This document shows positions 6,427 to 48,994 of a stretch of 64,000 nucleotides of DNA, piece by piece. Numbering within the stretch: position 1 is the stretch's first letter; every line of letters begins with the position of its first letter. The stretch is from a virus: positions 186,001 to 250,000 of IMG/VR virus record IMGVR_UViG_3300049460_000312; one strand, given 5' to 3'. Below the pieces are notes generated by a model that worked only from the letters and a program-made list of their open reading frames with translations, was not told the origin of the DNA and searched no databases. The position numbers and the translations under genes are program-made.

Positions 6427-8661
6427 CTACAGTGCCGGGACGCCTAAGCTGGACCAGGTATCGACGTAGCTGGCTTGCTGTTGATCGAGCGGCAGCTTGA
6501 GGAAGTTTTCCATGCCGGGAACGATCGTCAGGTCGCGCGGGTTGTCCACCCCAGTCATATCCACCAGACAGTTGTAGCGGGCGCGCACGCCCAGCAGACG
6601 CTGGATCACAAAGGACGCATCCTTCGAGTAACTGATGTCGCAGGTCTTGAAGGCTAACGGCTGCTCGAAGGTAGTGGAGCGACCCACCACGTCAATCTCC
6701 GGGAACACGTCCATATCCAGCAACAGATCCGCGGTGCCCTGCGTCTTGACATTCCACTCGTCCACCGTGGGGATCTCGATCCCGTAAGTGGTTTCAGTGT
6801 CGATGTCCAGATCATCCGTGCGCACCTGCTGGAAGCCTGCATCGATCACCGGACCGGCATTGATCGACAGACCAATCTGGATCGAGTAGCTGGAGAGATC
6901 CGTCAGAATCCCCGCCATCGCCCGCTGGATGTCCGCCATCGTAATGGTCGAGGTGAGATTCGCCCCGGTGGCTTCCTGCAGGATCACATTCGCCACTTCC
7001 AGCAACTGCTCGGGCGTCAGATCCTTAACCACGATATTGCGGTCTGCAAACCAGGTCGCGTAGTTCTGGCCGGGAGTGTCACCCAGTTGAAACTTCTCAT
7101 CACCCCACAGGCGACAGATCGCCGCTTCCTTCTGGCCGCGCGCAGTCATGTACTCTTCCGAGCACACCATGCCCCACTGTTCGTTCGCCGCATGAAACAC
7201 GTCAGTACAGTGGTTGCGGAAAGCTTCCAGCGAGATCTGTGGTTGTACCGGCGGCATCGTTGCCCGCGCGGTCATCAGCCACTGATCCGACACCCGCTTC
7301 GGATTGACTACGGCCTGCAGATCGGCGAGCGGTGCCAGTCCAATACGTTCCACCCGGTTCGCCACCACCATCGGCAGACTGTCCATCTGGAAGCCCTGCC
7401 CCACCACAAAGGCGTAGGCGTAGAAGCAGAACGCGTCCAGCGGATTGAGCGACAACCGAATGCCATTGGCTGGAATCGTGAAATTCACATAGGCCTGGTA
7501 GTAGCCCTTGTGCGCCAACCACAGCCAGTGCTGCAGCACGATGTCCGCCATGCGGAACTTCTCGCTATCGGTGTAATCGATCACCGTCGACTGCAACAAC
7601 TTGGTCGGCACGTTCGGATTCAACGTGTAGGTGGCGATGTCCTCGATATGCAGCTCTTCCTGATCCCGGTACTGATGATTGATCGGGTTGATGATGTCCT
7701 CGATGTCGAGCACCTCATTCAGGCTGAACTGGTTCTTGTTGTCGATGTTGGAGACCGTATTGAGCGGCTTCTTCTCAAACACCACGAGCGGCAGCAGCGA
7801 ATCCCCTGGCATGTTCTCGGTGGAGTGCGCCATCGAGAAGTGCGCCATCGGCAACCGGCGATCCGTGAACGTCTTTTGCAACAGCGCGTCAAAGAGCTCT
7901 TCGCGACCGTTGTTGTTCTGGATATAGGCCAGGTTGTGATAGAAGTACATCTGCTGGGCCCGCGTCATGTACGGCACGTACTTATCCAGCTTGGAGTTGC
8001 TCGCCAGATACTGCAGCACGTGGTAGCTGTGTGCCTCGTACGTCAGACAGGCCCGCAAGCGGATGTTCTCGATTGCACCCGGCAACGACCCATACAGCAC
8101 AGTCAAAAGACCGGCGAAATACAGGTTATCGGTGTTGGTGTACTGGACGTTATGCCAGCGCCGGATAAAGCCGTTGATGTGATCCTGCAGCGCCGGAATC
8201 AGTCCGGGCTCAGTGGCTTCCACCAGCGTATCCGGATAGGCCAGGATCTGACCGTCATAGGCCGCGATCGCCGTGTCGATATCACACGGGTAGAGGATAC
8301 CCCGGATCAGGGCTTCCTGGTCGGGATACTTGTCGACCAATTCTTTGTAATATGTTGTGCCAAAAGCGTAAGCTTTCTTTGTCGCGCGGTGAAACTCCAG
8401 GTTCTGCTTGGAGAAGACAATCTCCTCCAAGCTGTCCAACGAGGTGATCATCATCGGCGTATCGCTGGCGAAATACTCTCCTGACAGGTTCAGATAGTAT
8501 TTCCAGGTACGCGGGTCATTCTCGTCGTAGCTGCCGTTCGTGTAGCCCTGGACCCACTGATTCATCAGCGTGGCCGCATCACTAAACTTTAACACGATAC
8601 TGGAAGCCAGATCGAAAATGCTGTCCACGTAGATTTGGTAGTATTTGTTTTCCAATTCCAT
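6427..8661 (-). CDS. Large probable virion protein (744 residues)
   Basis: A 744-residue protein with regular globular composition, many aromatic residues and no transmembrane or enzyme motif that I could identify. It is transcribed divergently from the portal-like gene, with only 28 bases between the two starts, and lies upstream of another structural-type gene. The size and context favour an internal virion or head-tail protein. I do not recognise a named family. Confidence 0.5.
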   Translation of the reverse strand: MELENKYYQIYVDSIFDLASSIVLKFSDAATLMNQWVQGYTNGSYDENDPRTWKYYLNLSGEYFASDTPMMITSLDSLEEIVFSKQNLEFHRATKKAYAFGTTYYKELVDKYPDQEALIRGILYPCDIDTAIAAYDGQILAYPDTLVEATEPGLIPALQDHINGFIRRWHNVQYTNTDNLYFAGLLTVLYGSLPGAIENIRLRACLTYEAHSYHVLQYLASNSKLDKYVPYMTRAQQMYFYHNLAYIQNNNGREELFDALLQKTFTDRRLPMAHFSMAHSTENMPGDSLLPLVVFEKKPLNTVSNIDNKNQFSLNEVLDIEDIINPINHQYRDQEELHIEDIATYTLNPNVPTKLLQSTVIDYTDSEKFRMADIVLQHWLWLAHKGYYQAYVNFTIPANGIRLSLNPLDAFCFYAYAFVVGQGFQMDSLPMVVANRVERIGLAPLADLQAVVNPKRVSDQWLMTARATMPPVQPQISLEAFRNHCTDVFHAANEQWGMVCSEEYMTARGQKEAAICRLWGDEKFQLGDTPGQNYATWFADRNIVVKDLTPEQLLEVANVILQEATGANLTSTITMADIQRAMAGILTDLSSYSIQIGLSINAGPVIDAGFQQVRTDDLDIDTETTYGIEIPTVDEWNVKTQGTADLLLDMDVFPEIDVVGRSTTFEQPLAFKTCDISYSKDASFVIQRLLGVRARYNCLVDMTGVDNPRDLTIVPGMENFLKLPLDQQQASYVDTWSSLGVPAL

Positions 8662-17114: not shown

Positions 17115-17123
17115 GTAATATGT
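17115..17123 (-). promoter_or_regulatory. Early-type promoter box (ACATATTAC)
   Basis: Minus strand reads AACATATTACCAAGG, 98 bases upstream of the start at 17017. It matches seven other boxes in the window and the published phiKZ early consensus TATATTAC used by virion RNA polymerase. Confidence 0.6.
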
Positions 17124-22638: not shown

Positions 22639-23007
22639 CTAGTTAAGACGCATGTCGGGGACACCATAACGCTTGGTAGCGTAGTAGGTGTAGTCCTTGA
22701 ACCGCTGGATATGGCTCAACAGACACTGGTTCACCGGATAACCCAGCTCCCCTTTCGGGCAGTCATGATTGGCCGACGAAGCGATGGCTTGGCGTTTGGC
22801 TTCTACCTGGGACTTCACCACCATCGGCACCTGGCGTGAGTTGTACACGGCCTGCGCGTACTCGTCAGCCTGATCGTATTCGCTGACGATGACATTCGAC
22901 CAGCAATTGTCCTTCTGCTGCTTAGTCGGCAGCGTATCACACGTGGAAACGGCAAACGCCTGAGAGGCCCACAGAGCGATTACGAGAGCCAGGATATAGT
23001 TACGCAT
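22639..23007 (-). CDS. Secreted Cys-rich protein (signal peptide)
   Basis: Protein of 122 residues with a signal peptide (MRNYILALVIALWASQAFA, cleavage after AFA). The mature part has four cysteines (STCDTL, DNCWS, HDCPK, NQCLL), likely two disulphides in the periplasm. The C..(K/E)Q..xxC...YDQAD pattern loosely resembles LprI/DUF1311 proteins, some of which inhibit lysozyme; this is tentative. I start at ATG 23007, 7 bases from AGGAGG; an ATG 6 bases upstream is too close to the site. Confidence 0.62.
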   Translation of the reverse strand: MRNYILALVIALWASQAFAVSTCDTLPTKQQKDNCWSNVIVSEYDQADEYAQAVYNSRQVPMVVKSQVEAKRQAIASSANHDCPKGELGYPVNQCLLSHIQRFKDYTYYATKRYGVPDMRLN

Positions 23008-23030
23008 AGCCATCCCTCCTTAACGGCATA

Positions 23031-23052
23031 GAGAGCGGATTAGACCGCTCCC
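23031..23052 (-). terminator. Terminator after sspB-like gene
   Basis: GAGAGCGG/CCGCTCCC hairpin followed on the minus strand by TATGCCGTTAAGG, the last bases overlapping the ribosome site of the next gene. Confidence 0.65.
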
Positions 23053-23075
23053 TGTGCATGTTTAACTGCGTCTTG

Positions 23076-23477
23076 TTACCTGACCACTGACAGGAAGCTC
23101 TTTTTCGGTGCCGTTTCCTCAACTGCTTTCGCTGGAGCGGGTTCAACGGGACTTTCCGGCTTCGGCTCGAACTGGAATGCCATGCCTTCCTGGGTTTCTC
23201 GCGCAAAGAGCGCCACCACGTTATCGACCGGCACTTCAATCTGGAAGAGCTTGCCGGAGAAGCGCGCATTGAACTCGATCAGTTCATTGCCCATCCGCAA
23301 CTGGGTGGTCGCCTGTACGCTAATGTCTAGCGTGATCGAGTCGTCCTTCACATGCTGCATCGGCACGCGGGTGCGGCTATCGACCTGCACCGTGAGATAC
23401 GGCGTGTAGTTGTTGTCGGTGCACCACTCATAGAGGGCGCGCAGGAAGTACGGCTTCTGGGAAGTAGATTGACTCAT
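23076..23477 (-). CDS. sspB: SspB-like ClpXP adaptor
   Basis: Protein of 133 residues. Residues about 8-105 follow the SspB fold closely: KPYFLRALYEWCTDNNYTPY, VPMQHVKDDSITLDISVQAT, EFNARFSGK and VPVDNVVALFARE match the bacterial blocks RPYLLRA(L/Y)YEW, VP...V.DG.I.LNI...A, F.ARFGG and VP..AV.AIYARE. Bacterial SspB tethers ssrA-tagged and other substrates to the ClpXP protease. After a Pro/Glu linker the protein ends KKSFLSVVR, matching the SspB C-terminal ClpX-docking peptide (LRVVK). Both substrate-binding and ClpX-binding parts are therefore kept, so it could redirect host proteolysis. It is shorter than E. coli SspB (165) mainly in the linker. Confidence 0.85.
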   Translation of the reverse strand: MSQSTSQKPYFLRALYEWCTDNNYTPYLTVQVDSRTRVPMQHVKDDSITLDISVQATTQLRMGNELIEFNARFSGKLFQIEVPVDNVVALFARETQEGMAFQFEPKPESPVEPAPAKAVEETAPKKSFLSVVR

Positions 23478-23515
23478 TATCGGTTCTTCTTCAACTGAGC
23501 ATTAAGTTCATCTCC

Positions 23516-23548
23516 GACACGCTGGACTTTCTGTTCGTCCAGCGTGTC
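23516..23548 (-). terminator. Hairpin between nucleotidyltransferase and sspB-like genes
   Basis: Perfect 12-base-pair stem GACACGCTGGAC/GTCCAGCGTGTC. It lies in a 160-base gap (23478-23638) that also has a small CCCCG/CGGGG hairpin near 23586. No U-tract, so terminator or processing site. Confidence 0.55.
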
Positions 23549-23638
23549 GCAGCCTTGCAGGGAGCGTAGGGCCGCGCCGAGGACTACCCCCGTTGCCGGG
23601 GTAGAGCTCGACCTTCGTCGGCAGGTTTGGCTTGCTCG

Positions 23639-24070
23639 TTACGCACTCTTACGCAGGAGGTTTTCGAGCTCGACGATGTCGTCCATGTCTTGCGCGCGCT
23701 TGTCCTGCGTGCGCTCCGGATTGTTCGCAAGCGCCACCTTCTGCTTGAGGAGTTCTTCCGGGCAGTAGCAGCACACGCCACCGACGACGTGCCACTTGAT
23801 GTCGGTGCGCAGGCCGCGGTGCGCCGCGACTTCACCCAGCAGGTCAGGCAGCACGAGGTGCTCGCCGCGCGAGGTGGTGACCACTTTCGCGCCCTTGCGC
23901 TTCAGGCGATCGTAGAGTTCTGCCGGGATATCGAGATCCAGGTCTTCGGTTTCCTTGCGCAGCCCCAGCATCAGCAGGGCACCACCGGCCGAGAGGACGG
24001 CTTCCTTGATCGTCAGACGATGCTGTTTGCGGAAACGGTCATACGTCGCGATGATAGCAGATTTGTTCAT
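23639..24070 (-). CDS. AbiEii-like nucleotidyltransferase
   Basis: Protein of 143 residues of the minimal nucleotidyltransferase superfamily. Signature SAGGALLMLGLR (GG at 29-30) is followed by TEDLDLDI (Asp43, Asp45, Asp47), giving the G[G/S]...DxD metal-binding set. The C-terminal helix LLKQKVALANNPERTQDKRA then QDMDDI resembles the end of AbiEii/DUF6036-type proteins, where K and D..D also help catalysis. Relatives act as toxins or modify tRNA or proteins; here the target is unknown. I start at ATG 24070, about 48 bases after an early-type promoter box. Confidence 0.65.
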   Translation of the reverse strand: MNKSAIIATYDRFRKQHRLTIKEAVLSAGGALLMLGLRKETEDLDLDIPAELYDRLKRKGAKVVTTSRGEHLVLPDLLGEVAAHRGLRTDIKWHVVGGVCCYCPEELLKQKVALANNPERTQDKRAQDMDDIVELENLLRKSA

Positions 24071-24117
24071 GTTCGAGTAAGTTCTCTCTGAATGAGTAAA
24101 GGGATTACTGCAGGATG

Positions 24118-24126
24118 GTGATATGT
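24118..24126 (-). promoter_or_regulatory. Early-type promoter box (ACATATCAC)
   Basis: Minus strand reads CCACATATCACCATCCTGC, about 48 bases before the nucleotidyltransferase start at 24070. Confidence 0.6.
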
Positions 24127-24151
24127 GGTTAAAAAAGCGACGACATAGAGA

Positions 24152-24168
24152 GGAGGGTGTTTCCCTCC
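24152..24168 (-). terminator. Terminator hairpin
   Basis: GGAGGG/CCCTCC stem after the gene ending at 24184, followed on the minus strand by CTCTATGTCG, a variant of the usual TTTATGCCG flank. Confidence 0.65.
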
Positions 24169-24183
24169 CTCGTTTATACCGTT

Positions 24184-25053
24184 TTACGGCCAGCTGATGC
24201 TCAGATCGCCATTGCACAGCGCATTCATCAGTTCCATCTGCGGTGGCATGATCAGCAGATGCTTGCCCTGGTGCTCCGGCTCGCGCGAAATACCGATCGA
24301 AAACATCGTCGTCAGTTCAGACAATACCGGATGCAGGCCAATGCCCGGACGGAGTCGATAGAGACGATGGACGTATTCCGCCACCGAAATCTCATTTTCA
24401 ACCACCACGGTATCGGGCTCCACCACCCCCCAGTACGACAACGGCGTCGTCTGGAAGAACGGATCGGTATGTTCATCACGGGAGGCCATGCTGGCACCCA
24501 GCATGGCCGACATGGCTTCGCGCAGGGCTGTGACGATATGGACTGCCTGTTCCAGCGCCAGCTGACTAGCTTCTGTCAGTTCTGTACCACCCTCGCCGCA
24601 CTCCGAGATGAAGTTCAGCTTGAGCAGGTAGTTCGAGAAGAAATACTCGAATCCAACGCGAGCCTTCGTCAAAGCACGCTGGTTGCGATCCGATAACAAC
24701 GGACTATAGCCTCGTCCAGCCATGGCTTCCTGAGAGTCACGACTTACCGGCGCGTATAACTTCCCGCTGACCAGGATTGCGCCCGTGGGTGCAAATGTCG
24801 GTCCCGCCGGGTCCGCAGCACCCTTACCAAAAAGGGGAGTGCTGGGTGTGGTCAGACGTCGCGTGGCGAAAGCACGCGTGCTAGTCGGTTCCGCCGCGGT
24901 ATGCATCGAGCCGTGATTACCCGGATCACTCTCCGAGGGTCGGGCGTCATGTGTTTCCTGATGCGCATCCAGTGCGATGGCAGGCGGTAGTTCACCCGAG
25001 GGGGCGAAGCCGTTATCAACTGCAACCGGGACGTCGTTATCGGTGATGGCCAT
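24184..25053 (-). CDS. Hypothetical protein with disordered N-terminus
   Basis: Protein of 289 residues. The first 80 or so residues are polar and low in aromatic content (predicted disordered), the remainder is helical (ASQLALEQAVHIVTALREAM) and globular. No signal peptide or membrane segment, no recognised motif. It follows a small gene group starting at 25637. Confidence 0.6.
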   Translation of the reverse strand: MAITDNDVPVAVDNGFAPSGELPPAIALDAHQETHDARPSESDPGNHGSMHTAAEPTSTRAFATRRLTTPSTPLFGKGAADPAGPTFAPTGAILVSGKLYAPVSRDSQEAMAGRGYSPLLSDRNQRALTKARVGFEYFFSNYLLKLNFISECGEGGTELTEASQLALEQAVHIVTALREAMSAMLGASMASRDEHTDPFFQTTPLSYWGVVEPDTVVVENEISVAEYVHRLYRLRPGIGLHPVLSELTTMFSIGISREPEHQGKHLLIMPPQMELMNALCNGDLSISWP

Positions 25054-25128
25054 GCTTATTTCCTTTACAAAGTTCAGTGGTGGTGTTTCAACGTTCCATG
25101 CCGAGTTGCATTCGGCGGATCTTTTCGG

Positions 25129-25200
25129 TTACGCAACCGGAGCCGCAGCACCAGTCGCATCGAGAGGGGGAATAGCAGCCATCTCACGTAACAAGAGCAT
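25129..25200 (-). CDS. Possible micro-ORF (23 residues)
   Basis: ATG 25200 is preceded by a very strong GGGAGG site at a 4-base gap and directly follows the stop of the 141-residue gene. It would encode a 23-residue hydrophobic peptide (MLLLREMAAIPPL...). It fills part of a 158-base gap. Expression is not proven; it may instead be leader sequence. Confidence 0.3.
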   Translation of the reverse strand: MLLLREMAAIPPLDATGAAAPVA

Positions 25201-25211
25201 CTGCCCTCCCG

Positions 25212-25637
25212 TTAGTTCGGCAGCTTACCTTCGACGAGGTAGGTCAGGATATCGCTGTCGATGTCCTTGATATTACGGCACCCGAGATTGCTCACCAGGT
25301 GTTCCTTGGACATCATCGTGGTGGCGTCCTGGTAGTTCAGCGTGCGGCGTGACTGATCGTTTTGCAGATCACCGAACACAACGACGGTGGTCTTGCCACC
25401 GTCGTAGGGAATATTGCTGATATGCACCAGCGCGATGTCCTTGGGGACTTCCTGCTGTTGCAGGTGCAAGGTGGTGCGAAAGAGGTTGTCCGCCGCGCCG
25501 ACGGGCTTGGCGTAGTCCGGGCGAACTACCACCAGCGCGTCTTCCTTATCCTTGAGGGCGCCTTGCAGGGCGATGATGATGTTCTCGACAAACGTCGGTT
25601 GCTGATACAGCTTCTTTGCGACTTGGGCCTGTGCCAT
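25212..25637 (-). CDS. Hypothetical protein
   Basis: Protein of 141 residues, globular alpha/beta composition (DALVVVRPDYAKP, TTVVVFGDLQND). It is preceded by AGAGGAAAGTAAC. No signal peptide or membrane segment; no family recognised. Likely an early accessory gene by context. Confidence 0.6.
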   Translation of the reverse strand: MAQAQVAKKLYQQPTFVENIIIALQGALKDKEDALVVVRPDYAKPVGAADNLFRTTLHLQQQEVPKDIALVHISNIPYDGGKTTVVVFGDLQNDQSRRTLNYQDATTMMSKEHLVSNLGCRNIKDIDSDILTYLVEGKLPN

Positions 25638-25683
25638 TTTGTTACTTTCCTCTAGTGGTGGTGTGGGTACGGAATAAAAAAGT

Positions 25684-25710
25684 GCCGAGCCGCTCGCTAA
25701 CGGACTCGGC
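25684..25710 (-). terminator. Intrinsic terminator after HD-like gene
   Basis: GCCGAG..CCG / CGG..CTCGGC stem followed on the minus strand by ACTTTTTTATTCCG. It closes the unit of the RelA/SpoT-type HD gene. Confidence 0.75.
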
Positions 25711-25737
25711 CAAAGGAGTAATGATTACCTCAGTACC

Positions 25738-26742
25738 TCAGGAATGCCGACGCTCCAGCTCCTCAATGGCAAACTTCTCATTGAGTAGCACGGGCAGCGA
25801 GACATGGGCTAGCGTCTGCTGTTTGCGCTTAAGAGCCATATTCGGCGAAGCGTTCAACCGGTTCTTGACTTCTTCAATGTACTCGTACACGCGTTGCACA
25901 CACGGAAATTCGCGCGTAGTCTTGCGGTGCTTGTACAGGCACTGTTCGTTGTACGACTTGTTATTGCAGAACGTCGTGACGTGCATGGTGACGGTAGTAT
26001 CTGGGTGGATATGAGCCACGTAGCGCATGATGATGCGGCGCTCCGGACAGCACTCATAGCCAAAGTACAGATTAAGCTCAATCAGCTCCTTGTCATCCCG
26101 CGCATACTCGTCTGTCCAACTCATCTTCTCCAGGCTCGCCAGATCAATGATGTCCTGGAGAAACTCGAAGCGTAAATTCTTCTGGTAATTAGCGTGCGTC
26201 TTGAACTTCAACGCCTCCCCCAGGTACTGACTGCATGCGTCCAGATCCTGCATGCTCGGATTGTCAAACCGGGCGATATTGGAGTTGTCGATCGCGGTCT
26301 CGATCGCCACCTTAATCGCGGCGTAGTCTTGCACTACGCGGTCGGTGTAGGCATCGTACGCTTCACCATCACGACGTACCAAGGCCTCAGCCGTACTCAT
26401 GAGCGATACGGGGATCATGTAATCCTCGATCAAGGTCCGCGGTGTCAGACCTAACTCACGACCATTCTGTAACACTTTGCCGAGCAGGGTTGCACAGACG
26501 CCATGGACCGTACTGGCCCGTTCAGCGACGCGCAACACATGCTGGATATAGGGCCGACCGGTCAGGTCTTTGTGCCCCATGTGGACGGTGTACGCCAGTT
26601 CCAGACACGTATTGCGAAGATCCAGCAGGAAACGTTGCGTATCGCGGGCAGCCTGGTGATTTTGCAGGACTTTAGTTTTCAGCAGCTGTAGCGCGTTATG
26701 CTGTTTCTCTAGCGGTGTCTTCTTTACATCCGTGAGCATCAT
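25738..26742 (-). CDS. RelA/SpoT-type HD domain protein with degenerate active site
   Basis: Protein of 334 residues. Residues about 45-160 follow the layout of the RelA/SpoT/MESH1 (p)ppGpp hydrolase domain: LAYTVHMGHKDLTGRPYIQH then VLRVAE matches A..AH.GQ.R..G.PYI.HPL.VA, and KVAIETAIDNSNIARF occupies the place of K.AD...N. However the key HDxxED box is replaced by LGKVLQNG (about 87-94), so hydrolysis as in SpoT is unlikely. It may bind alarmone or act as a decoy. The C-terminal half is unrecognised, with a Cys pair (ECCPERR). Start ATG 26742 chosen for its AAAGGAG site. Confidence 0.5.
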   Translation of the reverse strand: MMLTDVKKTPLEKQHNALQLLKTKVLQNHQAARDTQRFLLDLRNTCLELAYTVHMGHKDLTGRPYIQHVLRVAERASTVHGVCATLLGKVLQNGRELGLTPRTLIEDYMIPVSLMSTAEALVRRDGEAYDAYTDRVVQDYAAIKVAIETAIDNSNIARFDNPSMQDLDACSQYLGEALKFKTHANYQKNLRFEFLQDIIDLASLEKMSWTDEYARDDKELIELNLYFGYECCPERRIIMRYVAHIHPDTTVTMHVTTFCNNKSYNEQCLYKHRKTTREFPCVQRVYEYIEEVKNRLNASPNMALKRKQQTLAHVSLPVLLNEKFAIEELERRHS

Positions 26743-26882
26743 CCGTCTTCTCCTTTCGCAGTTCATTAAGTTTAACTACTGCTGGTCGTCTCGCCGCTGT
26801 AAATTACGGAGTTTTAGGTGTCTTGTCCCTGCGGCATTGCATATGCGTTAGAGTACAAAATCACTTCTCCTCACAGCTGCTA

Positions 26883-26892
26883 GGATATGTGT
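26883..26892 (-). promoter_or_regulatory. Early-type promoter box (ACACATATCC)
   Basis: Minus strand reads ATACACATATCCTAGCAGC, about 140 bases before the start at 26742. It differs from the consensus at the last AC. Confidence 0.5.
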
Positions 26893-26918
26893 ATTCCCTA
26901 CGATCACAACGGCATAAG

Positions 26919-26938
26919 AGCCCGGGTCACCCCGGGCC
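26919..26938 (-). terminator. Terminator with GGCATAA flank
   Basis: CCCGGG/CCCGGG stem with GTGA loop after the gene ending at 26956; followed on the minus strand by TCTTATGCCG. Confidence 0.8.
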
Positions 26939-26955
26939 TTATGTCTTTTATGCCG

Positions 26956-27873
26956 TCACTCTTGCGGGAAGGTCGTTTTGTTAAACGCCAGGTACGTGTT
27001 CAGATGCACCCGCGCCACTTCCACCGCACCCGACCAGATAAGCTGGTAGGCTCGGTCCATGTGTTCCCACGCCTTGAGCGCCCGCACGCGTTCCTGATCG
27101 CGCAGATCCCAGTGGCGGTTGAGCAACACCTGCACTGACGACTTGTAGATGCCGTAGACCGTATCCGCCAGGGCATCCGGCTTATGGATCAGGTGATGCA
27201 CGATCACCGTCGCCGGATCGAGTTCAGGCAGCGGGCCGAACACTTCGCCGTGCTTGTCAAAATCATGCAGGAAGCGGGTCACCGCCGCGCGCGTGTGCTC
27301 ACCCTGGATAAGCGTGATCAGACGCGAGACTTCGCTGACGATCGACGGAATGCGCAGCTGGATGAAAGCGTCCTCGCCATCGACCCACAAGGCAAAGCGA
27401 ATCACCACGTCCCAGTTCAGTTCCGTGTTCAGGCGCTTCATCGTGATCGAGCTTTCCACCCGCACCTGCGCTTTGGAATCAGCCCGGCGCTGGCGCAGGT
27501 ACTCGTCGATGGTGATCAGCCAGTTGTCGAGCAACTGCGGATCAGCGATCAGCCGGTCCGTCAACTGCAGGCCCGCCGGCAAGAGCTTCTTCTGCACGTA
27601 GTTCTCGACCCGGTGCAGGGTGTGCAGGAAGTTATCCCGCTCGTAGAACGCGTTATACAGCACGGTGCCGGGTTCTTCGGCCAAGTGCATACCAATCCAG
27701 CGGTCTTGGTTAAAACCGCTGTCCAGGGCTGCTGTACGCAGTCCCTTGGCGGCACTGTAATGCCGGGGCGCGCGCTGGTTGCTGAACAACGAATGCACTT
27801 CGACCGAAGGGCCAAAGCACAAAGTTTTTTCCAGGAAATCCTGGAGGGAGAGGGTAGTGGCGACGGCTTCCAT
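26956..27873 (-). CDS. Hypothetical protein
   Basis: Protein of 305 residues, mostly helical, charged, with several His-rich turns (HHLIHKPDAL). No membrane segment or known motif. It begins 12 bases after the end of the secreted-protein gene and shares its transcript. Confidence 0.6.
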   Translation of the reverse strand: MEAVATTLSLQDFLEKTLCFGPSVEVHSLFSNQRAPRHYSAAKGLRTAALDSGFNQDRWIGMHLAEEPGTVLYNAFYERDNFLHTLHRVENYVQKKLLPAGLQLTDRLIADPQLLDNWLITIDEYLRQRRADSKAQVRVESSITMKRLNTELNWDVVIRFALWVDGEDAFIQLRIPSIVSEVSRLITLIQGEHTRAAVTRFLHDFDKHGEVFGPLPELDPATVIVHHLIHKPDALADTVYGIYKSSVQVLLNRHWDLRDQERVRALKAWEHMDRAYQLIWSGAVEVARVHLNTYLAFNKTTFPQE

Positions 27874-27885
27874 GATGTCCTTGAA

Positions 27886-28194
27886 TCAATGCTTTCTGAG
27901 ATAGACGAGATTCCTTTTGCAACTGAGCATGGCCGCGGCACCGGCTTCTTTCGGTGTAAGCGAGGGGCTCTCGTAGATCGAGTCTGCGATGCCTTTAATC
28001 TCAATCGCGGAGGTGGGTCGATCGGCATAGACTTGATCGACCCCTGCGTAAATGTTACCCAACGGTACGCTGCGGTCACGACCTTCAGCGATATGCACGG
28101 CGAGGTCATGCAGGGCAGCACACACTTCACTTTGAGCGAAGGCCTGTGTACTGAGCACCAAACCGAGCGCCAGCGCTGCGAGCAGCTTTTTCAT
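27886..28194 (-). CDS. Secreted small protein (signal peptide)
   Basis: Protein of 102 residues with a clear signal peptide (MKKLLAALALGLVLSTQAFA, cleavage before QSEVC). The mature part has two cysteines (EVCAAL, LSCKRN) that probably form a disulphide in the periplasm. ATG 28194 is preceded by AAGGGAA. First coding gene downstream of a long non-coding stretch. Confidence 0.65.
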   Translation of the reverse strand: MKKLLAALALGLVLSTQAFAQSEVCAALHDLAVHIAEGRDRSVPLGNIYAGVDQVYADRPTSAIEIKGIADSIYESPSLTPKEAGAAAMLSCKRNLVYLRKH

Positions 28195-28230
28195 TGTTGT
28201 TTCCCTTAGCGTAAGATAGTGACAGGCGTA

Positions 28231-28276
28231 TTTATTTTTCTTTTTGTTCTTGAGTAAAAACGAAAAGAAAAATAAA
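28231..28276. repeat. AT-rich perfect inverted repeat
   Basis: 14-base arms TTTATTTTTCTTTT and AAAAGAAAAATAAA around an 18-base spacer. It lies between the long non-coding region and the secreted-protein gene, and could end or process the non-coding transcript, since its left arm gives a U-rich stretch in the minus-strand RNA. Confidence 0.6.
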
Positions 28277-28287
28277 AGAGGCATTTT

Positions 28288-28925
28288 GCCCACCCTCTAA
28301 CCACTCGGTCTTACTCTAGCTGCTCCGCGGAGTGGCTAGTGTCAAGTGAGTGCGTTGGGGTGGGCGTATGCGCTTTTTGAGTGACGCGGATCTCTCAGCA
28401 AATCTCCTAGCGGCATCTCCATCGGTTCCAGCTTGATGGCGCGGACTAGGTCTCAGTGCGTATTAAGTCTCTGTCAAAGACACCACACAGGCGTCTATAT
28501 CTCGATTCTGGAAGCGTGTACTTACCAGGCGGAGGGCTCGTCAGTTCCCTCGGTATGACGTCAGGCGGCCGACGTACGCAAGTATGTCTGCAATCGGGAG
28601 CCTGGCGTGAGCGACGCATGTAAGAACCAGGTAAGTATAGGTCAGCTAATGCTCACTATGCCTGTCAGCCCTTTCTCTGGCGCATCGCTGCGTTTCAGAG
28701 ACCATCGGTCGCAGGTGCTCACGCTGCGAGGCACGATGGTGGTGGTGATGAGCGACAGACCACGCATCGTACCGTAGCACGATGCGGGTGAACAGAAGTG
28801 ACCTACAGAAATCCCAGCTCAGATGCCAGTACCGCAAAAGGCTAGCGTATCCGTAGATTGTTATTCTCCTTGTTCTTGCTTGTTGTTGGCGATTGGATTC
28901 GCTTGGTTCATAAAAGATAAGGGGC
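28288..28925 (-). ncRNA. Candidate large structured non-coding RNA 1 (about 640 nt)
   Basis: No plausible gene on either strand. Dense complementary segments: perfect 8-bp stem 28763-28770/28779-28786; 8-bp TACTTACC/GGTAAGTA stem (28519-28526/28630-28637) with the inner pair CCAGGC/GCCTGG (28525-28530/28600-28605); hairpin with a four-base loop at about 28570-28588; CTAGC..GCTAG near 28310-28340. Strand is inferred from the GTAGGATAGCTGTAA box and a CTTTTATG at the right end. Size and phage setting recall ROOL or GOLLD RNAs, but no homology is shown. Exact ends unknown. Confidence 0.5.
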
Positions 28926-28927
28926 CG

Positions 28928-28949
28928 TAATTTCTTACAGCTATCCTAC
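28928..28949 (-). promoter_or_regulatory. Repeated box GTAGGATAGCTGTAA (copy 1)
   Basis: Minus strand reads GTAGGATAGCTGTAAGAAAT. Near-identical copies occur at 36659-36681 and 44404-44425. This one overlaps the stop of the gene ending at 28946 and points into the non-coding region at 28288-28925. Confidence 0.5.
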
Positions 28950-29110
28950 TTGATGCCGAAGAAGCGCTTGGCGAATTCGCTCGGCTCGTCAGAGTCGGGG
29001 ATATCAAACGACGCAACAGGCGGTTGAGCACGAAGGCTATCGAAGAGTTCTTCGAACTCCGCCTTCGCTTCTGGATTGATGCCAGACGGAGGGGCCTCAG
29101 GCTTAACCAT
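28946..29110 (-). CDS. Small acidic hypothetical protein
   Basis: Protein of 54 residues (MVKPEAPPSGINPEAKAEFE...), acidic and Pro-rich, ending SEFAKRFFGIK. The ribosome site AAGGAAG lies within the end of the upstream gene, with which it overlaps by 8 bases. Probably translationally coupled. Function unknown. Confidence 0.55.
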   Translation of the reverse strand: MVKPEAPPSGINPEAKAEFEELFDSLRAQPPVASFDIPDSDEPSEFAKRFFGIK

Positions 29111-33727: not shown

Positions 33728-33736
33728 GTTATATGT
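33728..33736 (-). promoter_or_regulatory. Early-type promoter box (ACATATAAC)
   Basis: Minus strand reads CCACATATAACAAACCTG, about 140 bases before the start at 33589. Confidence 0.58.
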
Positions 33737-33810: not shown

Positions 33811-34593
33811 TTACTGAACGTGCGCCTGGGCGACCTGCCGGGCGAAATAGACCGTGTGGGTCGACTCCGTCGGATTGCGATCCTTGATACTCGCGATCAC
33901 GCGTACCAGAACCTGTGGTGCTACCGCCATATTCTTGCCTGCGTCCGGAGTGGCATCCATCACAAACGACAGCGACACGCGAATCGACCCGCTGGTCTGG
34001 TTCTGCGCGCAATGCTCGGTGATATACTTCTCATTGTTTTTCAGGCAATGGTAGAGGTAGACACCCAGTTGCTCGACGCTATCGTTCATGCACATCCAGC
34101 CGTCCTGCGCCATGGCCGCAACCATCTCTTCTGTCAACACGGTCATAACAGAATAGTCCATCTCCAGTTGCTTAAGCTCATGCCAGCGGTTCTTCTCGTA
34201 GCCCGCCACATTGCTGTAGTTGGTCACGCGCTGTTCACCCTCCGCTGTGTAATGGGTGGTGGTCACCAGGTTCAGGCGCACCGGCCCCTTGCGGACGCCG
34301 GAGAGTTTGCGGATATGGCTCAGAATCGAAATGCAGGCACTACGCGGATCTTGCGGTTCGCTGATCGCCTGGACATACGAGGACAGATCGATGAAGGGAA
34401 TCGCTCGTGCGCTCGTCTGCTGCATCTCCTCAAGACTGTCAACCACTGATTCCTTGCGATCTTCCGGTACGGTTTCCTTCTTAGTGGCAGGCACTTCACG
34501 AGCACGATCGGGCAAGACATAGCCCGCGATAAACAGCAGCAGGTAGCCGAAGAACAGCCGGATACCGCGCACACACCTGGCGATGGTTTTCAT
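33811..34593 (-). CDS. Membrane-anchored hypothetical protein
   Basis: Protein of 260 residues with an N-terminal membrane segment (about 12-27, LFFGYLLLFIAGYVLP), then a charged linker and a globular domain. Its ATG overlaps the stop of the RlaP-like nucleotidyltransferase gene by 4 bases, so the products may work together, perhaps at the membrane. No catalytic motif recognised. Confidence 0.6.
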   Translation of the reverse strand: MKTIARCVRGIRLFFGYLLLFIAGYVLPDRAREVPATKKETVPEDRKESVVDSLEEMQQTSARAIPFIDLSSYVQAISEPQDPRSACISILSHIRKLSGVRKGPVRLNLVTTTHYTAEGEQRVTNYSNVAGYEKNRWHELKQLEMDYSVMTVLTEEMVAAMAQDGWMCMNDSVEQLGVYLYHCLKNNEKYITEHCAQNQTSGSIRVSLSFVMDATPDAGKNMAVAPQVLVRVIASIKDRNPTESTHTVYFARQVAQAHVQ

Positions 34594-35537
34594 TTGCCTC
34601 CTTCGAGCAACATTTCAGCAAAGCGAGTGTTCAGCCTGTTGATCTGCTTGAGATAGTTTTCCATACTCCGGTCCGCCAGATGCGGCGGGACGATGATCAC
34701 CGGACGGCTCAGGACCAACGGGTGCAGCTTATCGATCACCCGAATACAGGTCGGGTGCCAATAGCTGTGACCGTTCTTGAACAAGCCATCGCGCAGATGC
34801 GGCAACATATTGCGTTGCAGGAACGAGACGTTGACATCCTGACCCACGTCCTGCAGATAGCCGTCGATGAGTTCGGCTAGGGTGAGGGTTTTGTTCAGCA
34901 CCAGCTCGCTCACAAAGCGCTGGCTCGTCACTGCCCAGCCAAGGAACAACCGGTAGATCGCATCCGAGATTTCCGAATGCTTGATCTCACCGCCTGACTT
35001 CATCAAGCCCCGGGCTTTGCTGGCGCGCCCGGCACAGGAATGCCGATAGCGCTCTGCGTCGAACGTAGAGGCTGCGAACGTATCGATCTGCTTGGTAAGG
35101 ACGTCATTGCCCATGAAGTCGATCACGAGGTTGTCGTGCCCGATGCGGAAGTCCAGATTACCCTTGCCGATTTCCCGCACAAAGAAGTCCAGGCTGACGA
35201 AGTTCAACTGCACCTCTTTTTCATCCACGGTGAAGTCTGCGTGCGTGCGTTGAAGCACTGACAGCGTGACTTGGGGCGGCACCGATTCTTCTTCAGCTAC
35301 CTGACGCGTATCGGCGGGGATCATCCGGGCATACTGGGAGATACCGCCCAGATACACCACGTACAGATCGATGTCCGATTCCGGACCCGCATAGCCTTTG
35401 GCCTGTGAGCCGAAAACTCCGGCATAAACCGGACGGATGTGAAAACGATCGCACTGCGCCTGGATCTCACGCATCAACATCCCGTAAAACGCTTCGCCGA
35501 ACTGACGTTCGAACGTCTTGTTATCGAAAAGCCCCAT
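34590..35537 (-). CDS. RlaP-like nucleotidyltransferase A
   Basis: Protein of 315 residues. The metal-binding signature is VFGSQAKGYAGPESDIDLYV (GS at 43-44, Asp55 and Asp57), followed by VVYLGG; further on, LNFVSLDFFVREIGKGN matches the helix-plus-GN block of the RlaP/YcgL family (Pfam nucleotidyltransferase seen beside RNA ligases). Such enzymes are thought to add nucleotides during RNA repair, but the substrate is unproven. ATG 35537 has GAGGGTGG upstream. It forms a pair with the related gene at 35591 and is coupled to a membrane protein gene downstream. Confidence 0.7.
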   Translation of the reverse strand: MGLFDNKTFERQFGEAFYGMLMREIQAQCDRFHIRPVYAGVFGSQAKGYAGPESDIDLYVVYLGGISQYARMIPADTRQVAEEESVPPQVTLSVLQRTHADFTVDEKEVQLNFVSLDFFVREIGKGNLDFRIGHDNLVIDFMGNDVLTKQIDTFAASTFDAERYRHSCAGRASKARGLMKSGGEIKHSEISDAIYRLFLGWAVTSQRFVSELVLNKTLTLAELIDGYLQDVGQDVNVSFLQRNMLPHLRDGLFKNGHSYWHPTCIRVIDKLHPLVLSRPVIIVPPHLADRSMENYLKQINRLNTRFAEMLLEGGK

Positions 35538-35566
35538 ACCACCCTCAATGTGTTCAGATGTTAAAC

Positions 35567-35585
35567 GGGCCGCGCGAGGCGGCCC
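35567..35585 (-). terminator. Hairpin between tandem nucleotidyltransferase genes
   Basis: GGGCCGC/GCGGCCC stem between the two genes. No U-tract; likely a partial terminator or processing site that sets their ratio. Confidence 0.5.
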
Positions 35586-35590
35586 GGGTC

Positions 35591-36529
35591 TCATGCAGCC
35601 AACAACTCCGTCGGCGGCGTTTCGGCTTTGCTCTTGCCGTTACGCTCGTCTTCGTGATCGAGCAACTCCTGGTAGAGGTCGATCATTTCGCGAGTTTCTT
35701 CGGGCAGGTTCGGATACTGCTTCGGATGCTCGCGCAGGTAGTCCGTCGCCAGACGCAGTACGCGGCCGGTGAACTGCCTGAGCAGGCTGACGGCGTTCTC
35801 GTTGATGCCCTGCGGCATGTCGAACGGGCTACGTTCGGTACGCGCACGAATCACGCCCGTGACTTCCCGAAGAAAGCCTTCGGACATCGAGGTGGCCCAA
35901 TTGGCACGATTCATTTCGATCAGTTCCTGAATCGTACGGCAATGCTGCTTGTCGCCATCCAGGTAGGCGAGCATGCGGTGCGCCGACCAGAGCGTACCGA
36001 GGTAAGTGCGTTCCTGCTTGTACTCACGGCCATGATCGTCAATGGCTTGTAGCGTGCGCATACCGTTGGTGATATGTTCACCGCAGCGATGCACCAGGTT
36101 CGGCAACAGGAAATAATCCTGCGCGATGTCCTCGAACAGGAACCGTACCTGAGCGTTGTCCGCGGCGAAGCGTTCGTACGCCATCAGCGAGAAGGTGCTC
36201 GCATTCATGATGCCGCGCAAGAGACTACGCATATCCAGCAGCGATACCATGATCTGCCAGCCGAGCTCCCGCGACATCTGCGTGGAGAGCTTGGCGAGCT
36301 TGTCGCGCCGGTCATCCAGCGTGCCTTCGAAAATCGGCGCGTTGGACATGTTCAGGTAGTCCGAGACGGGTCGGTTCAGCAGGAAGCAGATGTCCGTGTC
36401 GGAGTTCGGGTCATTGAAGCCGCGCAGGATCGATCCGTGGATCGTCGCTGCCGTTACTTCCAGTCCCAGGTGACGAGAGACTAGGGCGGTGGCTTCAGCA
36501 AGTCGTTGCTTTTTGAGTTGTTCGTTCAT
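35591..36529 (-). CDS. RlaP-like nucleotidyltransferase B
   Basis: Protein of 312 residues. The signature TIHGSILRGFNDPNSDTDIC (GS at 32-33, Asp44, Asp46) and the following FLLNRPVSDYL match the same superfamily as the next gene; MVSLLDMRSLLRGIMNASTF fits the helix-and-N block. Overall length and layout match gene A, so the two are probably diverged paralogues. An early-type promoter box lies about 55 bases upstream. Substrate unknown; tRNA or other RNA 3' ends are one possibility. Confidence 0.65.
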   Translation of the reverse strand: MNEQLKKQRLAEATALVSRHLGLEVTAATIHGSILRGFNDPNSDTDICFLLNRPVSDYLNMSNAPIFEGTLDDRRDKLAKLSTQMSRELGWQIMVSLLDMRSLLRGIMNASTFSLMAYERFAADNAQVRFLFEDIAQDYFLLPNLVHRCGEHITNGMRTLQAIDDHGREYKQERTYLGTLWSAHRMLAYLDGDKQHCRTIQELIEMNRANWATSMSEGFLREVTGVIRARTERSPFDMPQGINENAVSLLRQFTGRVLRLATDYLREHPKQYPNLPEETREMIDLYQELLDHEDERNGKSKAETPPTELLAA

Positions 36530-36582: not shown

Positions 36583-36591
36583 GTGATATGT
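36583..36591 (-). promoter_or_regulatory. Early-type promoter box (ACATATCAC)
   Basis: Minus strand reads GACACATATCACAAACGTAG, upstream of the nucleotidyltransferase start at 36529. The downstream AACGTAGA also appears after the box at 48986. Confidence 0.62.
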
Positions 36592-37513: not shown

Positions 37514-37686
37514 CGTTCTTCCTCATGTGGGTGCATGCGATAAAATAACCCTCCGAGTAAGAATTAGCAGCGCGCCCGCATTCTGTAGCCGCCACAACCC
37601 AATCCCGGTGGCTAGTTACATTCCATTTAACCTGGGTCGCTGTTCAGCTCGTTGGTTGAGGAAGTGCCGGTAACGCCCGCAGTACC

Positions 37687-37756
37687 TGCTCTGGTAGTAG
37701 ATTGGAATAACGCCGGTTACGACCCGGAAAAGTGGGTTCGATTCCCATCCAGGCAG
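37687..37756 (+). tRNA. tRNA-like element, possibly tRNA-Arg(ACG), degenerate
   Basis: Plus-strand stretch with a good T-arm (GTGGG-TTCGATT-CCCAT), then CCAGGCA which can pair with TGC(T)CTGG at the left end with one bulge. It keeps TA at positions 8-9, GG in the D-loop and a 4-bp anticodon stem (CCGG/CCGG) with loop TTACGAC. D-stem pairing is poor, so it may be a decayed tRNA or mimic. Opposite strand to neighbours; no encoded CCA. The rest of the 37514-37770 gap holds no gene. Confidence 0.35.
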
Positions 37757-37782
37757 TGTCACAGCAAAAAAAAAAATAAAGC

Positions 37783-43516: not shown

Positions 43517-43546
43517 TGGTAAGACCTTTCAGATATATTCCACGTA

Positions 43547-43555
43547 GTAATATAC
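43547..43555 (-). promoter_or_regulatory. Early-type promoter box (GTATATTAC)
   Basis: Minus strand reads GGCGTATATTACTACGTGGA, the closest match in the window to phiKZ TATATTAC; 31 bases before ATG 43516. Confidence 0.68.
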
Positions 43556-43628
43556 GCCCAACGGAAAGTTAGAATCAATTCCACACTATAAATTGGACAA
43601 TGCCTATAAAATTTGACGGCATAAAAAA

Positions 43629-43652
43629 GGGAGAGGGCCAATGCCCTCTCCC
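43629..43652 (-). terminator. Terminator ending the non-coding RNA 2 unit
   Basis: Perfect 10-base-pair GGGAGAGGGC/GCCCTCTCCC stem, then CCTTTTTTATGCCG on the minus strand. No gene lies between it and 44471, so the transcript it ends is non-coding. Confidence 0.85.
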
Positions 43653-44400
43653 GGAGTGCATTGCCTCGCGGGAACGTTCCACCAAACGTCCCGAGATTCA
43701 ACCCGCAAACAAACCACAGCTGAACGACGCCACCAGTCTTAGTGAGCGCGGGGAGGGGATACGGGCCCATCTACCTATCTTACCCCTCCCCACCGCCTCG
43801 TCCCAGGTCACCATCAAACCTGAGCGGAGTGTGGCTAAGCCCACTCACTACCCTCATTGTTCTCCGCACCCGTAAGTGCATTGGGTCAGCTCCCAACTCA
43901 ATGAAGGAACTACGCTCGTTCTAACGTAGCTTTGCTTTTTACCGCATACCAAGATAGCGGTGTTGACCTCTCCTCGTTTGCTTGGGTCTTCGAGGTTTCG
44001 CAATACCCATATCCTTCTCAGATAGGCTGGTGCTGCTGAGGTAGAGACATGCTGACGCCACTGGCGGACCTGCACTTTTCCCTACGCTGCTGCTACCCAG
44101 GCTAGCCTTCTAAACTGATCCATGACCTTTGCATGGCTGCGTCGGCTCGTCTGCATTTGACTTTAATTGTCGATCCCAACCGCTACACTACCTTAGTTCG
44201 TTCGAGGTGTTGTCGGTCTTACTTATCCTACTACTGGTCCGATGACTCGGGTGGAGGAACCAGTGGCAGGCTGCCGCTGTAGGAGGAGCTGGTGATCGCC
44301 TGTCACTCACGCCAGACGAAAAATGTTACCGTTCAGAAAGATAGTCCACGAGCTGCCGAACATAAAAGTTCCATGCTGGCTTAGGGGGACATAATAATTA
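43653..44400 (-). ncRNA. Candidate large structured non-coding RNA 2 (about 750 nt)
   Basis: No credible gene on either strand. The unit starts near the repeated box at 44404-44425 and ends at the terminator at 43629. Internal complementarity is dense: AAAAGTTCC/GGAACTTTT (44364-44372/44402-44410), GCCACTGG/CCAGTGGC (44057-44064/44260-44267), ACTGGT/ACCAGT (44233-44238/44259-44264), CTACG/CGTAG (43910-43914/43925-43929). Minus strand is inferred from promoter-like box and terminator. A TTTTATGTTC at about 44361 could mark the 5' end. Size fits GOLLD-class RNAs, but homology is untested. Confidence 0.55.
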
Positions 44401-44403
44401 GGG

Positions 44404-44425
44404 AACTTTTTTACAGTTATCATAC
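44404..44425 (-). promoter_or_regulatory. Repeated box GTATGATAACTGTAA (copy 3)
   Basis: Minus strand reads GTATGATAACTGTAAAAAAG, at the upstream edge of non-coding RNA 2 and downstream of the terminator at 44450. Related copies are at 28928 and 36659. Confidence 0.5.
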
Positions 44426-44449
44426 ATAACAGCAAAAAAAAAGAACTCA

Positions 44450-44465
44450 GGTGGCCGAAGCCACC
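44450..44465 (-). terminator. Intrinsic terminator with U-tract
   Basis: GGTGGC/GCCACC stem with CGAA loop after the micro-gene operon ending at 44471; followed by GAGTTCTTTTTTTTT on the minus strand. Confidence 0.85.
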
Positions 44466-44470
44466 CAAGC

Positions 44471-44599
44471 TTACTTGAGCCAGTGCACCAAGAGAGCAAT
44501 CGCACCCAGAGCTACAACCAGCTTCAGCTTGTTCTTCTGCACTTGCACGTAGAACTCGGGTTCTTCTACGAGGCGAACGAAGACGGTACGCTTTTTCAT
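44471..44599 (-). CDS. Micro membrane protein (42 residues)
   Basis: ATG 44599 overlaps the TGA of the upstream gene. Product starts MKKRTVFVRLVEEPEF and ends with a hydrophobic helix (KLVVALGAIALLVHWLK), so a single-span membrane peptide. Last gene of a four-gene micro-operon. Function unknown. Confidence 0.6.
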   Translation of the reverse strand: MKKRTVFVRLVEEPEFYVQVQKNKLKLVVALGAIALLVHWLK

Positions 44600-44763
44600 G
44601 TCAGGGCTTGCACTGCGGCGTGCAGTTCTTTGTTTTCCTTGAGCACGGCGTCCAGGCGAGAACCTGCGTCACGACACTCGGTACAGTTGCTGTGGATCAG
44701 ATGCTCGACAAGTTGTTCATCGGTGAACTCTTCGTCCAGGTCCTTCTGGTGACAAATCGTCAT
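44596..44763 (-). CDS. Small Cys/His protein (55 residues)
   Basis: ATG 44763 is preceded by GGGAGATAAGCC. Sequence has MTICHQKD and, in the middle, SNCTECRDAG, giving C..H and CxxC groups that could bind one zinc, followed by a helix (SRLDAVLKENKELHAAVQAL). Stop overlaps the next start by 4 bases. Function unknown. Confidence 0.62.
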   Translation of the reverse strand: MTICHQKDLDEEFTDEQLVEHLIHSNCTECRDAGSRLDAVLKENKELHAAVQALT

Positions 44764-44766
44764 GGC

Positions 44767-44880
44767 TTATCTCCCGTAAAGCGCGATCGCGCCGACCACT
44801 AGAAGAATAAGTGACGCGGTTGAAAGTAGCCGAGGCCAGAAGAACTCGGCCAGACTGACTTCGTGTTCTCCGACCCGCAT
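44767..44880 (-). CDS. Micro membrane protein (37 residues)
   Basis: ATG 44880 overlaps the TAA of the upstream gene (TAATG) and has a GGAGGGG site. After MRVGEHEVSLAEFFWPRL comes a membrane helix (STASLILLVVGAIALYG). Function unknown. Confidence 0.6.
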   Translation of the reverse strand: MRVGEHEVSLAEFFWPRLLSTASLILLVVGAIALYGR

Positions 44881-45107
44881 TACTGCCCCTCCGGCCACAT
44901 CAATGCATCAGCCTTGCCGGTGAACACCCGCCAGGCGGCCCGAAAGCGCGATACGATGCCAATGGCACATTGCGGTCGCATCGGCACCCACTTGCCATTG
45001 ATTTCGGTGGAGACTTCACGGGTACACTTGACCAGGCCTGCCAGGGTCCAGATCGTGGGTTCTTGTTTGAATTCCGGCCATAGTTTCAGTTTGCGCAACA
45101 ACTTCAT
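44880..45107 (-). CDS. Small basic protein, first of micro-operon
   Basis: Protein of 75 residues from ATG 45107 (AAAGGAAAG). Basic N-terminus (MKLLRKLKLWPEFKQE), several Trp, two Cys (KCTRE, QCAIG). It leads the four-gene set 45107 to 44471. Function unknown. Confidence 0.6.
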   Translation of the reverse strand: MKLLRKLKLWPEFKQEPTIWTLAGLVKCTREVSTEINGKWVPMRPQCAIGIVSRFRAAWRVFTGKADALMWPEGQ

Positions 45108-45144
45108 TTTTCTTTCCTTTGGTGTTGGTGACAAAAAATAACAG

Positions 45145-45410
45145 CATAAAGGAGCGCAGGGGGCGGCGATGACCCGAGGCTAACCCGTCCCCGTCCACCG
45201 CCGCCCTTCTCCTACACCGCCCTCCCCGGATTTGCCGGACGGAGGACTATTTTCGATCGCATGCACGAAAGGTCGCACTTCCGGATACTCCCGCGTAGGA
45301 AGCAATCCGACATGGCGTACCGCACGCGACCGACGTCGCGGGAACTCCCGCGAGGGTCAGCGCCGTCGGGTCTCTCTTCCCGGGGGCGCCAGACTCTTTA
45401 CTACAACAAT
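45145..45410 (-). other. GC-rich structured stretch downstream of tRNA genes
   Basis: No gene or tRNA recognised. Contains GGCGGCG/CGCCGCC pairing (about 45160-45208) followed on the minus strand by CCTTTATGCTG, which probably ends the tRNA transcript, a nested CCTCC(CCGG..CCGG)GGAGG hairpin near 45215-45245, and a CGCGGGA/TCCCGCG hairpin near 45338-45356. Probably part of the same RNA unit as the tRNAs and the region at 45600-45985. Confidence 0.5.
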
Positions 45411-45413
45411 ACT

Positions 45414-45489
45414 TGGCTCCCCGGGTTGGACTTGAACCAACGACCAACGGATTAACAGTCCGCTACTCTACCGACTGAGCTACCAGGGA
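45414..45489 (-). tRNA. tRNA-Asn (anticodon GTT)
   Basis: Full cloverleaf on the minus strand: acceptor TCCCTGG/CCGGGGA with one G-T pair, D-arm GCTC..GAGT, anticodon stem GCGGA/TCCGT with loop CTGTTAA, T-arm GTTGG-TTCAAGT-CCAAC, discriminator G and encoded CCA. Co-transcribed with tRNA-Asp; may top up a codon used heavily by the phage. Confidence 0.93.
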
Positions 45490-45505
45490 TCTACTACAGA
45501 AACAA

Positions 45506-45582
45506 TGGCGCGGCGTAGGGGACTTGAACCCCTGACCCCTGGCGTGACAGGCCAGTACTCTAACCAACTGAGCTAACACCGC
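45506..45582 (-). tRNA. tRNA-Asp (anticodon GTC)
   Basis: Full cloverleaf on the minus strand: acceptor GCGGTGT/ACGCCGC, D-arm GCTC..GAGT, anticodon stem CTGGC/GCCAG with loop CTGTCAC, T-arm AGGGG-TTCAAGT-CCCCT, discriminator G, encoded CCA. Lies 16 bases upstream of tRNA-Asn. Confidence 0.93.
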
Positions 45583-45599
45583 AAACTACAAAACAAGAG

Positions 45600-45985: not shown

Positions 45986-45994
45986 TCAATCAGG

Positions 45995-46111: not shown

Positions 46112-46115
46112 CGGG

Positions 46116-48985: not shown

Positions 48986-48994
48986 GTAATATGT
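48986..48994 (-). promoter_or_regulatory. Early-type promoter box (ACATATTAC)
   Basis: Minus strand reads GCGACATATTACTAACGTAG, 55 bases before ATG 48931; shares the downstream AACGTAGA with the box at 36583. Confidence 0.65.

Follow-up and report, generated by a model that had tools for sequence, protein, structure and literature searches.

A jumbo-phage protein with a RelA/SpoT-type HD domain and a ruined metal site: a candidate pseudoenzyme

Phage alarmone hydrolases are usually taken as enzymes that erase stress or defence signals of the host, and the accessible text of PMC7824862 names a jumbo-phage HD-alarmone phosphodiesterase that is taken there as an enzyme. What use would a phage have, then, for a protein with this fold whose active site is gone? 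The question is raised by a 334-aa protein encoded in the 64 kb of DNA analysed here (the window), part of a 283,373-base virus record. We describe the evidence that its N-terminal half is an HD domain of the RelA/SpoT type, that the metal site of this domain is lost, and that the protein may nevertheless be kept by selection.

The features of the locus are collected in Table 1. The open-frame list also contains an in-frame start upstream, at 26766, that would give a longer ORF; the ATG at 26742 is favoured because of the ribosome-binding site placed in front of it. A virion protein encoded in the window (49096-50901) has relatives in Noxifer, Psa21, Phabio, PhiPA3 and other large Pseudomonas phages, and there are PHROG family matches for the major head gene and the DnaB-like helicase gene; therefore, the window phage is a phiKZ-related jumbo phage. 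By the same virion protein, the closest virus record is that of Ralstonia phage RP12 (63% identity). The pseudo-hydrolase gene is surrounded by small genes without assigned function. One of its neighbours, encoding 141 aa (25212-25637), separates it from the next conserved gene and is absent from that place in RP12. Elsewhere in the window, positions 34590-35594 encode a protein with a weak nucleotidyltransferase match, and a tRNA-Arg (acg) gene is found on the plus strand (37686-37757) among minus-strand genes. Additionally, about 2.6 kb that are gene-free in simple gene prediction (43517-46115) contain tRNA-Asn and tRNA-Asp genes, which explain the 92% match of this region to Burkholderia phage FLC9.

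The original prediction described the protein as a RelA/SpoT-type HD protein with a dead site, and this reading is well borne out. The N-terminal half matches the PHROG family phrog_990, "metal-dependent phosphohydrolase" (E 2.5e-9), the best PDB sequence match is 7smg, a "(p)ppApp hydrolase" (E 2.4e-6, residues 44-184), and a two-sequence profile compared with profiles of three phage HD proteins reached 96.5% probability (E 9.8e-10). HD_4 was the sole Pfam match and stayed under its own cut-off (13.5 vs 27.2 bits), while an NCBIfam scan of the 334-aa protein gave no match, which may be the reason why the RP12 copy is listed as uncharacterised. We rejected membership in the long RSH (RelA/SpoT) proteins, as Pfam shows only the sub-threshold HD_4 and the PF04607 synthetase domain was found neither in the window phage record nor in RP12; for this latter reason, a pairing of the protein as antidote to a phage-borne PF04607 synthetase was also ruled out. 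The AlphaFold2 model had just two sequences as input and its overall confidence is low (pLDDT 45); it is better at residues 9-123 except 73-78, and of low confidence at residues 133-185, so that structural support for the HD fold comes from a predicted model and chiefly concerns residues 33-132. When this model was searched against the PDB, in line with the comparison to MESH1 and SpoT that had been proposed, ranks 1-23 were all HD-domain proteins, mostly Rel, SpoT, RelA, SAH and MESH1, with Z values from 11.3 for the best to 6.3 for the lowest of them, and 4.2 for the next row. Judged from the sequence profiles and the predicted fold, the HD homology of the N-terminal domain is beyond chance.

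We also found the HDxxED motif destroyed, as had been proposed, with residues 88-93 reading GKVLQN. The "H..G..R..G.PYI.H" layout that had been described as kept is mostly present, except for the Arg position, which is occupied by Asp59; since an Asp at this place is usual in the subfamily, it does not by itself point to decay. From the four metal ligands (H, H, D, D), the window protein keeps His68 and has lost the others (H to G88, D to K89, D to T149), and the RP12 ortholog keeps none of the four. The catalytic Glu-Asp of HDxxED is Gln92-Asn93 here and Glu-His in RP12, a Lys and an Arg kept by nearly all relatives are also gone from the window protein, which has Ala146 at the place of the family's invariant Lys. 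Because both orthologs carry the changes H to G88, D to T149 and K to A146, the loss of the site is probably older than their split.

This state was compared with that of 240 relative loci, the best 80 each of 343, 470 and 221 confirmed loci from three scans, some contigs being present in two of them. All four metal ligands are present in 237 of the 240; the exceptions are L201, which is gapped at two late sites and whose match stops where the stored stretch ends, and L074 and L306, in which Gly replaces one Asp. HDxxED is part of one of the two patterns used in the 470-locus scan, and of none in the other two scans; in the sets from these HDxxED-free patterns (best 80 of 343 and best 80 of 221) the four ligands are found in 158 of 160 relatives. 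The viral contig L306 (142-621) encodes a related HD protein that is partly decayed (HG for HD, EH for ED, N to A) and that, by its sequence, adds an independent viral example of a degenerate SAH. For the window protein, we infer that alarmone hydrolysis is excluded by the known enzymology of the family, barring a rebuilt site. A site rebuilt for another, metal-free reaction might make use of the new polar residues Lys89, Gln92 and Asn93, but RP12 has Glu, Glu and His there and the two proteins have no new catalytic set in common, which leaves a changed enzyme highly improbable.

As to the subgroup from which the domain would derive, SpoT has an Arg at the Asp59 position, as do the intact HD proteins present in 6 of the 48 related virus records, while Asp is found in 7smg and in the bacterial relatives (100% in the relatives, a figure partly forced by the search patterns, since those of the 343- and 221-locus scans include the Asp59 stretch). 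The GQxDKxG motif, whose Asp we take to set the specificity of the (p)ppApp-hydrolase-like group, reads GHKDLTG in the window protein and GKTDRAD in RP12, with the Asp kept and the Lys lost. We built a maximum-likelihood tree of 78 rows with every second genome locus, every second of 49 distinct viral loci and 13 others, the genome and viral loci being drawn from the best 80 of 343 and the best 80 of 470. The two orthologs pair at 100/100 and lie on the same side as 7smg of a 99/99 branch, away from SpoT; their stem is of 5.4 changes per column and the inner supports are weak, so their exact place is unsure. In this sense, the likelier place of the HD domain is among the (p)ppApp-hydrolase-like small alarmone hydrolases, a placement weakened by the long branch. 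The intact phiKZ-like HD proteins form a clade separate from the two orthologs, and descent from such a gene is less likely by the tree and by the Arg/Asp difference, with the same caveat of the long branch. Those intact proteins with the SpoT-like Arg, encoded in six phiKZ-like records among the 48 (L051-L056), may from their sequences be real phage alarmone hydrolases.

A domain that no longer cuts could still bind. The protein might act as a nucleotide sponge or sensor, its dead HD domain holding (p)ppApp, (p)ppGpp or another adenine nucleotide uncut and either lowering the free signal or switching the C-terminal domain. The pocket residues retained in the window copy are His54, Asp59, Tyr65, His68, Asn153, Arg158 and Tyr173, and RP12 shares Asp59 and Tyr65 with it. 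However, RP12 has Arg, Ala, Glu and Gln at positions 68, 153, 158 and 173 (numbered as in the window protein), the ancestral pocket changes no more slowly than the rest, and both proteins have lost the invariant Lys and most of the metal site. Of the 21 columns with at least 95% invariance in 160 relatives (best 80 of 343 and best 80 of 470), the window protein keeps 12, RP12 6 and both together 5; the 160 relatives keep 16 to 21, with a median of 21. The two orthologs are identical at 8 of the 21 family-invariant columns vs 61 of the 121 other columns, a small contrast that comes from one ortholog pair, and because of it we favour a protein-binding scaffold over sequestration. The conserved function would thereby not use the old nucleotide pocket. 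The sequestration of (p)ppGpp suggested in the original prediction is thus not favoured, given the (p)ppApp-hydrolase-like grouping and a pocket that is not conserved between the orthologs, and we regard the sponge or sensor in general as possible, at a rather low probability.

The ortholog in RP12 (332 aa, A0A1L7N0T0) is identical at 157 of 324 positions without gaps (48% identity), and phrog_36069, the family of the RP12 protein, gives a full-length profile match (E 1e-102, residues 11-334). Identity is spread over the HD part (74/153) and the C-terminal part (76/149). At 47-48% identity, the pseudo-hydrolase is conserved better than both flanking genes (36% and 31%), which indicates that the gene is not decaying. 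The differences at codon positions 1, 2 and 3 are 0.37, 0.29 and 0.64, and LWL85 gives dN 0.41 and dS 2.18, the dS being near saturation and NG86 saturated. As far as one pair can show, purifying selection would keep the whole protein, the statistics of selection and of the pocket being both those of a single ortholog pair. A decaying gene or a chance resemblance would fit the long stem branch, but the frame is intact in two phages at 48% identity, dN is lower than dS and the fold match is far above background; we consider this explanation scarcely credible and, on these three grounds, already refuted.

The family has a narrow distribution. Besides the window phage, phrog_36069 was found in 1 of the 48 related virus records, that of RP12, some of the records being fragments. 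The protein, used as a single query against viral_contigs and genome_contigs, gave no close relative, the two-sequence profile search gave none beyond RP12, and in tblastn against phages, from which near records may have been excluded, no place exceeded 45% query coverage among the best 40 of 97 records and none at all exceeded 80%. This distribution bears on the possibility that the fold has become a structural component packaged in the virus particle, as a virion or assembly protein. The DnaB-like helicase and major head genes are about 4 and 6 kb away and, to our knowledge, many phiKZ-like virion proteins are without known relatives; on the other side, the gene stands in small-gene surroundings and its family is missing from 47 of the 48 records, unlike a core virion part, and this role seems unlikely to us. 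In the phage RP31, 32 virion proteins by mass spectrometry are given in the accessible text of PMC5468394.

The C-terminal domain, about 149 aa and nearly half of the protein, was absent from the original prediction. Its profile found only RP12 in viral_contigs, and neither Pfam nor PHROG gave a recognised relative beyond that phage. The other predicted window genes included no paralog of the domain (best 3.6% probability), and a copy of a neighbour was rejected, as the profiles of the two conserved flanking proteins matched it at probabilities of 0.2% and 0.4%. An open frame of more than 90 residues past the HD match is present in 3 of the 240 relatives (best 80 of 343, 470 and 221), none of them in one set of 80 and three (L121, L115 and L147) in the other 160, and by eye their tails have no resemblance to this domain. 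Modelled alone, the domain reached pLDDT 43, and ranks 1-13 of the structural search (VIA listing) were RWD or kinetochore proteins; the best Z for RWD was 7.4, and a Z below 8 may be chance with a model of this pLDDT. An RWD fold, which is protein-binding, is on this predicted model a lead only.

Regarding expression, the gene has its own terminator, as had been proposed. RP12 carries a hairpin at the same place as that of the window, between the ortholog and the preceding gene, and with a terminator downstream and a hairpin before it in both phages, the pseudo-hydrolase gene probably stands alone. The early-type promoter box of the original prediction fared less well: a partial box, ACATATCCT, is present, but it is imperfect with respect to ACATATNAC and no promoter box was found upstream of the RP12 ortholog, so "early" expression is not established. 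The full motif ACATATNAC occurs 7 times in the window vs 0.88 expected, always on the minus strand, one copy lying within a stretch conserved in RP12 (L002 at 11887), and it is probably a phage promoter by these sequence counts. No sigma-70 promoters were found in 23000-29000. Another motif, TTATGCCG, occurs 22 times in the window on both strands and often frames intergenic terminator-like hairpins (e.g. 26910-26960); it is present in 11 of 35 upstream gaps, and a similar frame is found at the same place in RP12.

Table 1. Positions, in window coordinates, of the pseudo-hydrolase gene, its domains and site residues, and nearby signals
Feature	Position	Strand	Basis or remark
334-aa pseudo-hydrolase gene	25738..26742 (stop codon included)	minus	open frame, RP12 ortholog, phrog_36069 match
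Ribosome-binding site AGGAG for ATG 26742	26750..26754	minus	sequence; RP12 ortholog with AGGAG similarly placed
RelA/SpoT-type HD domain, residues about 33-185	26188..26646	minus	sequence profiles and predicted structure; residues 133-185 by sequence alignment
Asp59 where SpoT has Arg; retained in RP12 and the (p)ppApp-hydrolase-like group	26566..26568	minus	alignment
His68 of PYIxH, sole metal ligand retained; Arg in RP12	26539..26541	minus	alignment
Ruined HDxxED, residues 88-93, GKVLQN (RP12: GEVFEH)	26464..26481	minus	alignment
Thr149 replacing the late metal-binding Asp; Thr in RP12 also	26296..26298	minus	alignment
C-terminal domain, residues 186-334, about 149 aa	25741..26187	minus	76/149 identical to RP12
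Intrinsic terminator, hairpin then six T	25676..25710	minus	25665-25730 fold -21.3 kcal/mol, z -3.05
Terminator-like hairpin after the preceding gene	26920..26937	minus	scored on the plus strand; palindrome between two minus-strand genes
Candidate promoter-like box ACATATCCT, imperfect	26882..26890	minus	full motif ACATATNAC unmatched here
ACATATNAC copies	8347-8355, 17115-17123, 24118-24126, 33728-33736, 36069-36077, 36583-36591, 48986-48994	minus	

With moderate confidence, we propose that the protein is a pseudoenzyme, in which the dead HD fold and the C-terminal domain are kept by selection as a scaffold that binds another protein. The ancestor of the N-terminal domain would be a (p)ppApp-hydrolase-like small alarmone hydrolase, which would have lost its metal site (three of four ligands here, four of four in RP12) and its catalytic Glu-Asp pair and gained a C-terminal domain of about 149 residues. 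The HD fold would now serve as a scaffold and, with the C-terminal domain, bind another protein during infection. The most specific candidate partner, by analogy only, would be a RelA/SpoT-family or toxic alarmone synthetase of the host, named because some relatives of the fold are immunity proteins: in the accessible text of PMC12226406, Aph1, a relative of this fold, is an immunity protein against such enzymes. In this sense, the interference with host RelA/SpoT or toxic synthetases raised in the original prediction is possible. The specific form of a decoy, where the dead (p)ppApp-hydrolase fold mimics the antidote and with the C-terminal domain blocks a host alarmone synthetase without catalysis, is in our opinion quite unlikely; if true, it would constitute a counter-defence mechanism new for this fold. 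Titles and abstract openings in the literature gave no description of a dead phage SAH. A fold kept while the lineage diverged to 48% identity, with the active site and much of the pocket discarded, suggests a usefulness to the phage without hydrolysis and, if the partner is a host alarmone synthetase, this may be a catalysis-free block of stringent-response or toxin-antitoxin immunity. Furthermore, the case is a warning for annotation: when a phage protein gives an HD match, its metal site should be inspected.

Among the closest known systems is the RP12 ortholog itself (phrog_36069), with the same dead site and orthologous flanking genes, which differs from the window protein in further pocket losses. 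The (p)ppApp hydrolase 7smg of Bacteroides caccae, of the Aph1 type, superposes over 93 residues at 2.1 A (Z 10.8) and has Asp59 and much of the later helix pattern in common with the window protein; unlike it, 7smg keeps HDxxED and all four ligands intact, whereas the window protein has one ligand (RP12 none) and the extra 149-aa C-terminal domain. The intact phiKZ-like HD proteins (phrog_990; e.g. L051, from a 316,674-base record) are of the same broad HD superfamily and the same phage group but keep HDxxED and have the SpoT-like Arg; in the window phage and RP12, phrog_990 had no match besides the pseudo-hydrolase gene itself. Finally, the pseudo-hydrolase domain of E. coli RelA offers a cellular likeness, with the same fold and the hydrolase residues replaced (5iqr RelA, Z 9.0), and RelA is described in the accessible text of PMC12226406 as being without hydrolase activity owing to substitutions. 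RelA, however, is a long ribosome-bound synthetase, while no PF04607 domain was found in the window phage or RP12.
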